A stretch of DNA of 64,000 nt from Nocardiopsis trehalosi NBRC 14201. GTDB lineage: Bacteria > Actinomycetota > Actinomycetes > Streptosporangiales > Streptosporangiaceae. Of the stretch, positions 1,615-49,961 are shown in pieces; position 1 is the stretch's first letter, and every line of letters starts with the position of its first letter. The notes under the pieces were generated by a model. It made no database searches and was not told where the DNA came from. It saw nothing but the letters and a program-made list of their open reading frames with translations. A program made the translations under genes and the position numbers. The stretch covers positions 1 through 64,000 of the forward strand of contig NZ_BCRK01000005.1 in the NCBI RefSeq assembly GCF_001552555.1. The letters are read 5' to 3'.

Positions 1615-3165
1615 TCAGCCGGTGACCGCCGTCGCGCGCTCGGCGGCCTTGGCCGCGCGCCGGGACCGCACCCGGCCGATGGCGACCACGGCGCCGATGA
1701 CCAGCAGGAGGGCGTAGATGCCGACCGTGATCCCGCTGTCCACCAGCACGGTCACGTCGCCCTGCCCGACCTGGAGTGCGCGCCGCAGCTCCGCCTCGGC
1801 CACCGGGCCCAGGATGACCGCGATCAGCACCGGTGCCAGGGGGATGTCGTAGCGGCGCATCATCAGCCCCGCCAGCGCCAGCAGCAGCATCAGCCACAGG
1901 TCGGTGATGGAGGAGCTGGCCGCGTACACGCCCAGCGACGAGAACACCGTGATGCCCGCGTACAGGTACGGCTTGGGGATCAGCAGCAGCTTCGCCCACA
2001 GCGGCGCGAACGGCAGGTTGAGGATGAGCAGCATGACGCTGCCGATGAACAGGCTGGCCAGCAGCGCCCACACCAGGTCGCCGTTGCGCTCGAACAGCAG
2101 CGGACCCGGCTGCATGCCGTACTGCTGGAACGCCGCCAGCATGATCGCCGCCGTCGCCGACGTCGGCAGGCCCAGCCCCAGCAGGGCGCCCATCGCGGTG
2201 CCCGCGGTGGCGCTGCCCGCCGCCTCGGGGGCCGCCACGCCCTCGATCGCGCCCTCGCCGAACTCGTCGGGGCGGCCGCCCTTGCGGGCCCGCCGCGCCG
2301 CCAGCTTGCGCTCGGCGCCGTAGGCGAGGAAGGTCGGGATCTCCGATCCGCCCGAGGGGATGACGCCGAACGGCACGCCGAACACGGTGCCGCGCAGCCA
2401 CGCCGGGACCGTCCGGCGCAGGTCGGCGCCCTTCAGCCACGGGGTGCCGGTGCGCCGCGGCGGCGACGCGGGGGCGTTGTCGGTGTGCACCCGGCCGGCC
2501 ACGTGCAGCACCTCGCCGACCGCCAGCAGGGCGACGGTCACCGTGATGATGCTGAAGCCCTCGAACAGCTGCGGCACGCCGAGCGTGAACCGCTCCGCCC
2601 CGCTGAGGGTGTCGATGCCGACGAGCGAGATCGTCAGGCCGATGCCCAGCGCCACCAGGCCGCGTACCAGGGAGTGCGACACCACCGCGGAGGTGGCGAT
2701 GAACGCGAACACGGCCAGCGCGAAGTACTCGGCCGGGCCGAACCGCAGCGCCAGGGCGATGATCCACGGCGAGAAGAACGCCACCAGCGCCGTCGACAGG
2801 ATCGCGCCGACGAACGCGCCGATCGCGGACGTGGCCAGCGCCTGCGGGGCGCGCCCGCGCAGCGCCATCTTGTGGCCCTCGAACGTGGTGGCGATCGCCG
2901 AGCTCTGCCCCGGCGTGTTCATCAGGATCGCGGCGGTGGAGTCGCCGAACAGGCCGCCGTAGTAGACGCCCGCGAACATGATGAACGCGCCCGTCGGGTC
3001 GAGCTGGAAGGTGACCGGCAGCAGCAGGGCCACGGCCATCGACGAACCCAGGCCGGGCAGCACGCCCACGGCCGTGCCGAGCACGACGCCGAGCAGCGCC
3101 CACAGCAGGTTCTCGGGGGTCAGCGCGTGGCCGAACCCCGTCATGAGGTGATCGAGCGCGTCCAT
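1615..3165 (-). CDS. tctA: Tripartite tricarboxylate transporter, large permease subunit TctA
   Basis: Large membrane subunit (516 aa, about 11-12 TM segments) of a TctABC-type secondary carrier that moves tri- or dicarboxylates across the membrane using a periplasmic/extracytoplasmic receptor. Family landmarks are visible: the N-terminal [28 protein letters not shown] in the middle, and the second-half repeat [14 protein letters not shown]. The length is usual for the family. The ATG abuts the TAA stop of tctB with no gap, so translation is coupled. It is the last gene of tctC-tctB-tctA. The CoA-transferase and citrate-synthase-fold lyase divergently encoded nearby suggest citrate or a related tricarboxylate as substrate; that is inference. 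Confidence 0.93.
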
Positions 3166-47602: not shown

Positions 47603-47832
47603 CCCGCCGCCGGGCCGCCGTCCACAGGCGCGCGGTTCCCGTGGCGCGACCGCCCCTCGCGCGGGTTGCCTGGAAGTAGGGGTTCCCCCCGGCACCACGG
47701 CCCCGTCCGCCACCGCCGCGGGGCGCGCCTCCGCACGCCCGGAACCGCCCCGCGTCGATGGCCGGGCGGAGGTTCTCCACAGGTGCGGGATCGCGGTGGC
47801 GGGGCGGCGGGGCCGCGGGCCAGGCTGGCGGG

Positions 47833-48498
47833 GTGTCCGCGACGACCGTGTCCACCGCCCTGTCCGCCCTCACCGGTCTGCTCCTGGGCGAGCGCTGCGC
47901 CGGCTGCGCCCGCCCCGGGCCCCTGCTCTGCCCGCCGTGCGCGGCCGCGCTGCGGTCGCCCCCGCGCCGGTGCCGGGGCCGGCCGGGGTGCCCGCCGGTG
48001 TGGGCGGCCGGGCCCTACGCCGACCCTCACCGGGCGGTGCTCCTGGAGTTCAAGGAGCGCCGGGCGCGGGCCCTCGCCGCCCCGCTCGGGGCCCGGCTGG
48101 CGCGGGCGGTCGCCGCCGCCCACGGCGGGCGCGGCGCCCCCGTGCTGGTCCCCGTCCCGGCGCGCCCCGGGGCGCGCCGGCGGCGCGGCTACGACCCCGT
48201 GCTGCTGCTCGCCCGCGCCGCGGCCCGCCACCACGGCGGCCGCCGCCCGGCACGCGTGGCCCCGGTGCTGCGGCACCGGCGCCACGTCGCCGACCAGGTC
48301 GGGCTCGACCGGCCCGGGCGCCGGGCCAACCTCGCCGGGGCGCTGGAGGCGCGGCCGGACCCGCCGCCGCGGGCGGGCCCGGTGGTGGTCGTCGACGACG
48401 TCGTGACTAGCGGCGCCACGCTCGCCGAGGCCGCCCGGGCGCTGCGCGCGGCCGGGTGGCCGGTGGCCGGCGCCGCCGTGGTGGCCGATCGCGGGTAA
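47833..48498 (+). CDS. ComF-family phosphoribosyltransferase-like protein
   Basis: A 221-aa protein. The N-terminal CAGCARPGPLLCPPC (about 24-38) is a zinc-ribbon; RRRGYDPVLLLARAAA and the PRPP-binding loop VVVVDDVVTSGATLAEAAR near the C-terminus mark the PRTase fold of ComF/GntX proteins. ComF takes part in DNA uptake in competent bacteria; in actinomycetes the role is unproven. GTG 47833 gives the usual family start VSATTVSTALSALTGLLLGERC; a longer in-frame ATG at 47758 adds Gly/Arg-rich low-complexity sequence. It ends 35 bp before a strong terminator. Confidence 0.87.
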   Translation: MSATTVSTALSALTGLLLGERCAGCARPGPLLCPPCAAALRSPPRRCRGRPGCPPVWAAGPYADPHRAVLLEFKERRARALAAPLGARLARAVAAAHGGRGAPVLVPVPARPGARRRRGYDPVLLLARAAARHHGGRRPARVAPVLRHRRHVADQVGLDRPGRRANLAGALEARPDPPPRAGPVVVVDDVVTSGATLAEAARALRAAGWPVAGAAVVADRG

Positions 48499-48637: not shown

Positions 48638-48666
48638 CTGACATCGGCGGCATCTCGGGTTAGCGT
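48638..48666 (+). promoter_or_regulatory. Promoter of the raiA-type RNA
   Basis: CTGACA (48638-48643) and TAGCGT (48661-48666) with exactly 17 nt between them; transcription would start about 48672, at the base of the RNA's closing helix. Confidence 0.65.
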
Positions 48667-48669
48667 TCA

Positions 48670-48951
48670 GGACATGGCACCCGTCCGGGTCCGTGGTTGC
48701 GCCGGAGGCGGCGCCCCCCTCGCGGGGGCGCGAGTCCGGCAAGCCGATGCCAGCCGCAGGCGAAACGGCCCACGTAAGGCGACTTTTCGTCGACCGATCA
48801 CGGTGCGGCTTAGAGGTAAGTCCTGCCCCGCAGAGGGTCCGGATGTCCCTCGGTCACGGGAGAAGGGCAGTAGTCGCACCAAAGCGCGGCGAGACCCTCA
48901 GCAGGCGGATGTGGGGACGAAGACCAGGTCGGCCGGGCGGGTGACATGTCC
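48670..48951 (+). ncRNA. Structured RNA, probable raiA RNA upstream of hpf (raiA)
   Basis: About 282 nt with 5' and 3' ends closed by a long helix: GGACATG (48670-48676) pairs with CATGTCC (48945-48951) and CACCCG (48678-48683) with CGGGTG (48938-48943), one G-A mismatch between. Inside are GCCGGA/TCCGGC (48701-48706, 48735-48740) enclosing an 8-bp GCGCCCCC/GGGGGCGC hairpin (48711-48731), and a branched domain: GGTGCG/CGCACC (48802-48807, 48875-48880), CTTA-GAGG-TAAG (48809-48820), CTGCCC/GGGCAG (48823-48828, 48865-48870) and GAGGG/CCCTC (48833-48851). A promoter ends 4 nt upstream and a hairpin terminator follows. The raiA RNA class was described by comparative genomics in Firmicutes and Actinobacteria directly upstream of raiA/hpf genes, which is this location. 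Alignment to the class was not possible here, so class assignment is inference; RNA character is strongly supported. Confidence 0.75.
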
Positions 48952-48960
48952 ACGGCGAGC

Positions 48961-48989
48961 CGGCCGGAGCGCGCAGTGCGCCCCGGCCG
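48961..48989 (+). terminator. Hairpin terminator of the raiA-type RNA
   Basis: CGGCCGG-A-GCGC (48961-48972) pairs with GCGC-C-CCGGCCG (48978-48989) around GCAGT, 10 nt after the RNA's closing helix. No T-tract. Confidence 0.6.
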
Positions 48990-49054
48990 CGCCCCGTCCC
49001 CTCCGCGCGCGCCCCGTCCCGCGCCGCCGTCCGCCGCGCCGTCCCGCGCCGCAG

Positions 49055-49079
49055 GGGTGAGCCAAGATCTCGTGGGTAT
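49055..49079 (+). promoter_or_regulatory. Stress-type (SigB/SigF-like) promoter candidate for hpf
   Basis: GGGTG (49055-49059), 14 nt, then GGGTAT (49074-49079) match the GNNTN-N14-16-GGGTA(T/C) pattern of actinomycete stress sigma factors. It would give hpf its own transcript of about 130 nt leader, separate from the upstream RNA. Confidence 0.45.
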
Positions 49080-49214
49080 ACGCACTGCCAAACCGCACCG
49101 CCGCTCCCGGCGGTGGAAGGGAGGCACGGTCCGAACCCAACCCGCGCACCAGCCAATTCACGGCAGCGATACAGCCGGCCGCCGCCCCGGCGGCCACGCG
49201 TTGAAGGGGGTCTT

Positions 49215-49901
49215 GTGGACATCATCGTCAAGGGTCGACGCACGGGGGTCAGCGACAAGTTCCGGCAGCACGTCGAGAACAAGCTGACCAAGCTCGCCAA
49301 GTGGGAGAAGAAGGGCATGAGCGTCGATGTGGAGGTGTCCCGGGAACGCAACCCGCGGCTCGCGGACGTGTGCGAGCGCGTCGAGCTGACCATCCACTCC
49401 AGCGGGCCCGTGGTCCGCTCCGAGGCGTCCGCCGACGACCGCTACGCCGCCCTCGACCTCGCCCTCGTCCGCATCGAGGCGCGGCTGCGCAAGGCCGCCG
49501 ACCGGCGCAAGGTCCACAAGGGCACCCGCGCCCCCGTGTCGGTGGCCGCCGCCACCGCCGACCTCGCGGTCGACGGCGCGGGCACCGGCCTGGGCGCGGT
49601 GGCGCCGCCCCCCGCTCCGCCCGGCGACACGGCCGCGGCCCCGGCCGAGGAGTTCGACGGCGCCGCCGTCGACGACCAGTTCGCCGACGGCGTGGTCGAA
49701 CTCGCCACCCAGGGCGAGGCCCCGCTGATCGTCCGCGAGAAGTTCCACTCCGCCAAGCCCATGACCATCGACCAGGCGCTCATGGAGATGGAGCTGGTCG
49801 GACACGACTTCTACCTGTTCCACGACGAGGAGCGCGACGCCCCCAGCGTGGTCTACCGCCGCAAGGCCTTCGACTACGGTGTGCTCCGCCTGGTCGACTG
49901 A
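49215..49901 (+). CDS. hpf: Long-form ribosome hibernation promoting factor (HPF/RaiA)
   Basis: A 228-aa protein that binds the 30S subunit and promotes inactive ribosome dimers during stress. The N-terminal RaiA/YfiA domain is residues 1-100 (MDIIVKGRRTGVSDKFRQHVENKL; SVDVEVSRERNPRLAD; YAALDLALVRIEARLRK). A flexible Ala/Pro linker (about 105-165) leads to the C-terminal dimerisation domain (about 170-228: IVREKFHSAKPMTIDQALMEMELVGHDFYLFHDEE...VVYRRKAFDYGVLRL), which identifies the long form that forms 100S ribosomes alone. GTG 49215 follows AAGGGGG. A raiA-type RNA and a stress-type promoter lie upstream. Confidence 0.96.
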   Translation: MDIIVKGRRTGVSDKFRQHVENKLTKLAKWEKKGMSVDVEVSRERNPRLADVCERVELTIHSSGPVVRSEASADDRYAALDLALVRIEARLRKAADRRKVHKGTRAPVSVAAATADLAVDGAGTGLGAVAPPPAPPGDTAAAPAEEFDGAAVDDQFADGVVELATQGEAPLIVREKFHSAKPMTIDQALMEMELVGHDFYLFHDEERDAPSVVYRRKAFDYGVLRLVD

Positions 49902-49904
49902 CCG

Positions 49905-49961
49905 GGCCGCACATGACGGGTGCCGCGACCGATCCGGTCGCGGCACCCGTCATGTGCGGCC
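49905..49961. terminator. Perfect 27-bp stem between hpf and the convergent gene
   Basis: Arms 49905-49931 and 49935-49961 are exact complements around an ATC loop, an unusually long perfect stem starting 4 nt past the hpf stop. It can terminate hpf and the minus-strand gene that ends at 49977. Confidence 0.85.

Follow-up and report, generated by a model that had tools for sequence, protein, structure and literature searches.

The window, that is, the whole stretch of 64,000 nt analysed, belongs to the genome of Nocardiopsis trehalosi NBRC 14201. It carries, one after the other on the + strand, a comF-like gene (47758-48498; TIGR00201, 53.7 of 233.6 bits, below cut-off), an RNA gene (48670-48951) and hpf (49215-49901), which encodes a long-form ribosome hibernation-promoting factor of 228 aa with a GTG start (NCBIfam TIGR00741, 79.9 bits against a cut-off of 40.9). 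The comF-like gene and hpf flank the RNA here and also in most relatives, with the comF-like gene on the same strand as the RNA.

Searching the whole window against Rfam with cmscan gave one match over threshold, that of the raiA model RF03072 to 48680-48941 (+), with 136.7 bits against a gathering cut-off of 101.3 and an E value of 1.4e-33. The match is full-length (model positions 1-209 of 209) and the RNA is present as a single copy in the genome. A preliminary description of this DNA had named the RNA raiA from its context and had suggested a covariance-model scan and a search for covarying pairs in relatives as checks. The scan gave this clear match, the pair count over 85 actinobacterial copies (see below) was clearly positive, and the two results bear the name out. 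The RNA encoded here belongs to the raiA (ModT) family of structured RNAs, a known and widespread class to which the window copy adds a member.

With the raiA/ModT RNAs of C. acetobutylicum and C. difficile (RF03072) the window RNA shares the full-length model match, P1, P3, the pseudoknots pk-1 and pk-2, the conserved UUAGA-GUAAG and GGGG-CCAGG stretches, and the position between comF upstream and hpf downstream. However, it is longer and GC-rich, with a 40-nt optional P2 insert, its pk-2 pair is the actinobacterial C-G and not U-A, and a hairpin and a promoter of the stress type lie between it and hpf.

Fold and pair conservation

The 282-nt segment 48670-48951 folds at -148.4 kcal/mol, a value that none of 200 shuffles equalled (z = -3.4). 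Its ends form the closing helix that had been described, of 7 bp plus 6 bp with one G-A mismatch: 48670-48676 pair with 48945-48951, G48677 faces A48944, and pairing resumes from 48678 with 48943 and continues inward to Rfam P1. Although these ends do pair, the limits proposed for the RNA need adjustment, as the Rfam family spans 48680-48941 and a transcript beginning 6-8 nt past the -10 element would start near 48672-48674, so that the outermost 2-4 pairs may be untranscribed. Within the extension of P1 (48670-48679 with 48942-48951), the inner pairs are 97-100% paired in 85 sequences, with compensatory changes, and the outer six (48670-48675 with 48946-48951) are poorly conserved in the family (29-72% paired).

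Pairs were counted over 85 aligned actinobacterial copies, using a structure made up of the Rfam helices and those of the cryo-EM structure (PMC11751092), including P1 with its extension, P3a, P3b, pk-1 and pk-2, among others. In this structure 87.5% of cells were paired. Double-sided changes occurred in 25 pairs, compared with 14.9 (sd 1.8) in shuffles, none of 500 reaching 25, and the covariation score was 0.125 versus 0.081. Shifting the pair partners by 1-3 columns made the covariation signal collapse.

P2 (48702-48741, +) is a GC-rich optional hairpin, an insertion relative to the Rfam consensus whose length varies among relatives; it is missing from one of them (L013) and of very different lengths elsewhere. 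The hairpin formed by P3a (4 bp) and P3b (3 bp) occupies 48743-48769 (+), and its loop (48752-48758) is one half of pk-1. Pairing in P3a and P3b reached 100% over the 85 sequences, P3a having varied on both of its sides, and the geometry agrees with the cryo-EM structure (PMC11751092); judged by base pairing, this would be the same hairpin. In pk-1 (48752-48810, +), 48752-48758 (AGCCGCA) and 48804-48810 (UGCGGCU) form 7 of 7 pairs, again with 100% pairing in the 85 sequences and with double changes, the pair 48754-48808 being CG, GC or UG. The second pseudoknot, pk-2 (48801-48919, +), joins the pk-loop to J4-1c through C48801-G48919 and G48802-C48918. Among 119 named loci, drawn from Clostridia, Actinobacteria and other groups, its two pairs read UG/CA in 56, CG/CG in 45 and UA/UA in 2, with few mismatches, and therefore pk-2 covaries between phyla. 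The outer pair is C-G in 85/85 actinobacterial sequences and the window carries the actinobacterial CG/CG form. The window retains in full the two pseudoknots seen by cryo-EM, and what had been read as a branched domain at 48802-48880 is actually made up of portions of pk-2 and pk-1 together with part of the 3' domain. Some Rfam pairs of the middle region, for example 48773-48799 (helix 6, 55% paired), were unsupported in the 85 copies. The nested structure that Rfam gives for RF03072 has neither pk-2 nor P3, at odds with cryo-EM and with the pair counts presented here.

Transcription signals and the raiA-hpf gap

The raiA promoter lies at 48638-48666 (+), with a -35 element CTGACA (48638-48643), a spacer of 17 and a -10 element TAGCGT (48661-48666), exactly as first described. 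Because a scan for E. coli-type promoters found no match in the window locus, as expected for a high-GC actinomycete, and a standard terminator scan found none after raiA, where the hairpin is without a U run, both signals were judged by conservation. The family sample comprised 51 genomes, 18 from the clade of the window and 33 from the rest of the family. The pattern CTGACA-N16/18-TA(G/C)(C/G)(G/T)T closely precedes raiA in all 18 genomes of the window clade and in 30 of the 33 others of the family, leaving a footprint in 48/51 amid variable flanking sequence. Outside the family, the exact pattern was found in 0/40, and a TAGCGT-like -10 still in 25/40.

Ten nucleotides past the closing helix, a hairpin of 6 + 4 bp with one mismatch (48962-48988, +; z = -2.9 over 60 nt) is a probable U-less terminator. 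Most of the 18 genomes of the window clade have a strong hairpin at the equivalent position, though of differing sequence, and in three (L188, L024 and L023) it is weak. Comparative footprints support the RNA's own promoter and terminator of the preliminary description.

The separate stress-type promoter that had been assigned to hpf was found throughout the clade. It has the form GTGAGCC...GGGTAT (49057-49079, +) with a -10 of the stress-sigma type (GGGTAT, 49074-49079). In 18/18 window-clade genomes there is a TGGGTATACGC-like motif 137-162 nt 5' of hpf and the promoter takes the form GTGATGACC-type/GGGTATACGC, and no raiA-hpf gap sampled outside the clade held a GGGTAT-type hpf promoter. 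The gap measures 273-501 nt in the window clade (273 nt in the window) and holds the 3' hairpin and the hpf promoter; this split of hpf from raiA is specific to the clade. In 25/33 other family members hpf starts 34-54 nt past the RNA, with little beyond a ribosome-binding site between. With gaps this short, raiA and hpf would commonly share a transcript, and a role in cis is conceivable in those genomes.

The invariance of the hpf promoter suggests that hpf in the window clade has become independent of the unit before it. It also weighs against an arrangement, in itself unlikely in our estimation, where the RNA is free-standing in the clade and yet read-through supplies part of the hpf mRNA during growth, the stress promoter adding more. 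The preserved adjacency of the two genes would agree with such a supply, and a terminator hairpin without a U run, weak in three genomes of the clade, may permit read-through into hpf.

The hpf leader of the window clade holds a conserved GC-rich hairpin, GGCCGCCG...CGGCGGCC (49170-49215 in the window), some 20 nt 5' of the start codon, for which Rfam gave no match. Streptomyces-like genomes that have no raiA RNA carry the raiA-hairpin RNA (RF03059) immediately 5' of hpf; we found it there in two of these (L224 and L228, about 1846-1894, minus strand). It is a single hairpin of 48 nt, structurally unrelated to raiA RNA, and it was rejected as an identity for the window leader, because its model found no match in 48930-49260 at E up to 5. 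Directly 3' of hpf, two perfectly matched 27-bp arms enclose a 3-nt loop (49905-49961); this inverted repeat probably serves as a terminator, perhaps in both directions.

Distribution and role of the RNA

The overall comparison covered about 90 relatives. The raiA RNA was present in 44/60 relatives and in 72/296 genomes spread over the class, and in both sets it was, where present, always one copy, full-length and over the cut-off. Many families keep comF, raiA and hpf in this order on a single strand; an exception to this synteny is the locus L017 (G004), where comF is inverted relative to raiA-hpf.

Three genomes carry raiA and show no Ribosomal_S30AE domain genome-wide: G044 and G060 (93% and 100% complete), which form one small-genome family, and G327 (96% complete), of another family. 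In all three, raiA is kept at its old place between comF and secA (loci L002, L160 and L208 respectively). In the first two secA follows raiA directly, and in G327 a LuxR-type response regulator, so labelled from its translation, stands between raiA and secA where hpf would be. The reverse is also found. The genomes tested of families f5, f6, f16, f19, f20, f21, f24 and f26 keep hpf and gave no raiA match, Streptomyces-like genomes retain hpf and are missing raiA, and in 12 hpf loci of raiA-lacking families no degenerate copy of raiA was detected at E up to 1.

The preliminary description had seen in this locus a link between raiA and ribosome hibernation. That claim drew on adjacency alone and does not hold up well against hpf being lost with raiA kept, and the reverse; the comparative evidence speaks against a close dependence, the claimed link is weak, and the tie becomes a question with comparative evidence against it. 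The locus is informative as a natural experiment in which the RNA and hpf are separable, the two being set apart in the clade by an end signal and a stress promoter. Because raiA persists where hpf has been uncoupled from it or has disappeared, it is improbable that the RNA serves only to switch hpf. In Clostridia, the genes downstream of raiA vary (PMC11706538, PMC11477304). Deleting raiA in Clostridium acetobutylicum or C. difficile impairs sporulation and the growth transition, and these defects can be complemented in trans (PMC11706538, PMC11477304); the C. acetobutylicum work is cited as reported in PMC11751092 and PMC11477304. The separability, the varied downstream genes and the trans complementation together make regulation of hpf unlikely as the conserved function of raiA, and the adjacency of the two may reflect shared timing. 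The statement that raiA has no settled function is, given the published deletion phenotypes in Clostridia (PMC11706538, PMC11477304), partly outdated; as to the molecular mechanism, a protein-bound RNA or a catalytic RNA has been suggested (PMC11706538, PMC11751092, PMC11477304). The RNA is also reported to be abundant (PMC11706538, PMC11751092).

The best explanation of the whole, to which we give a probability of roughly 0.8, is that raiA/ModT is here a gene of its own, free-standing and trans-acting, with hpf a separate unit. The vegetative-type promoter at 48638-48666 would drive a transcript of roughly 270-320 nt that would fold compactly, held by pk-1 and pk-2, and end at the U-less hairpin, and hpf would be transcribed as a separate unit from its stress-type promoter. 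By analogy with Clostridia, the RNA would be abundant and act in trans, not as a riboswitch, aiding the departure from exponential growth into stationary phase or development, including sporulation, and probably acting through a protein partner or a catalytic activity.

That the RNA instead acts in cis, as a leader or riboswitch for hpf, is what the Rfam type label 'Cis-reg; riboswitch' would imply. The same-strand position of hpf after the RNA, seen in nearly all relatives, and the gaps of just 34-54 nt in 25/33 other family members agree with this. We nevertheless consider it quite improbable, since a hairpin and a clade-specific promoter part raiA from hpf in the window clade, two lineages without hpf retain raiA, and deletions in two Clostridia are complemented in trans. 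A riboswitch would have an expression platform coupled to the downstream gene, and here hpf has its own conserved promoter beyond the hairpin. The Rfam label for RF03072 is itself at odds with the published genetics. To read the segment as a fortuitous fold of high-GC DNA or a piece of a coding frame has a negligible probability: at high GC, folds and open frames arise easily, and frames of 83-180 aa do overlap the segment (one of 83 aa at 48693-48944), but this reading is ruled out by covariation well above shuffles and slid controls, and the E value of the model match and insert lengths that do not vary in steps of three among relatives also stand against it.

BldD boxes upstream of raiA

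SsgA was present in 64/72 raiA-positive versus 94/224 raiA-negative class genomes, in a tally of our own that is confounded by kinship. SsgA-type sporulation proteins were discarded as a correlate of raiA, because the large SsgA-bearing families f19, f20 and f21 are without it. Consequently, raiA is neither required for development nor restricted to it.

A possible connection to development is suggested by the DNA upstream of raiA. The consensus box of BldD is TNAC-N5-GTNA (PMC4151990), and outside the window clade 24/33 family genomes have a perfect copy at -74 to -76 from the Rfam raiA start, upstream of the -35 element (the loci include L004, L010, L018, L162, L166, L167, L174, L176, L177, L179 and L180). 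In 21/33 it reads TCAC-N5-GTGA, the arms being invariant and the spacer variable, and the local background of TNAC-N5-GTNA is about 0.015 per 250 nt. In the window clade the box was found in 0/18 genomes upstream of raiA and in none of the raiA-hpf gaps. The pattern suggests BldD-(c-di-GMP) control of raiA in the sister genera and a rewiring in the window lineage. Perhaps raiA is a direct target of BldD in the sporulating actinomycetes of the family, within the c-di-GMP/sporulation circuit, and the window clade later lost the box and placed hpf apart under a stress-type promoter; from the boxes, we would put this a little short of an even chance. ModT also acts in a c-di-GMP/sporulation circuit in Clostridia, and no paper on BldD and hibernation that we found deals, by title or abstract, with BldD control of raiA. 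As a lead linking raiA to c-di-GMP and actinomycete development, the box pattern may outweigh the main finding.

As a positive control, TNAC-N5-GTNA was present upstream of 14/14 bldD genes examined, that of the window genome included, and the DNA-binding domains of BldD are near-identical among 14 genomes, one of them Streptomyces-like (64-70 of 70 residues). Many of the genomes with the box at -74 to -76 have a second TNAC-N5-GTNA box at about -238, just preceded by an almost invariant GCGACACGCC block that contains GACAC, box and block together lying some 236-265 nt upstream of raiA.
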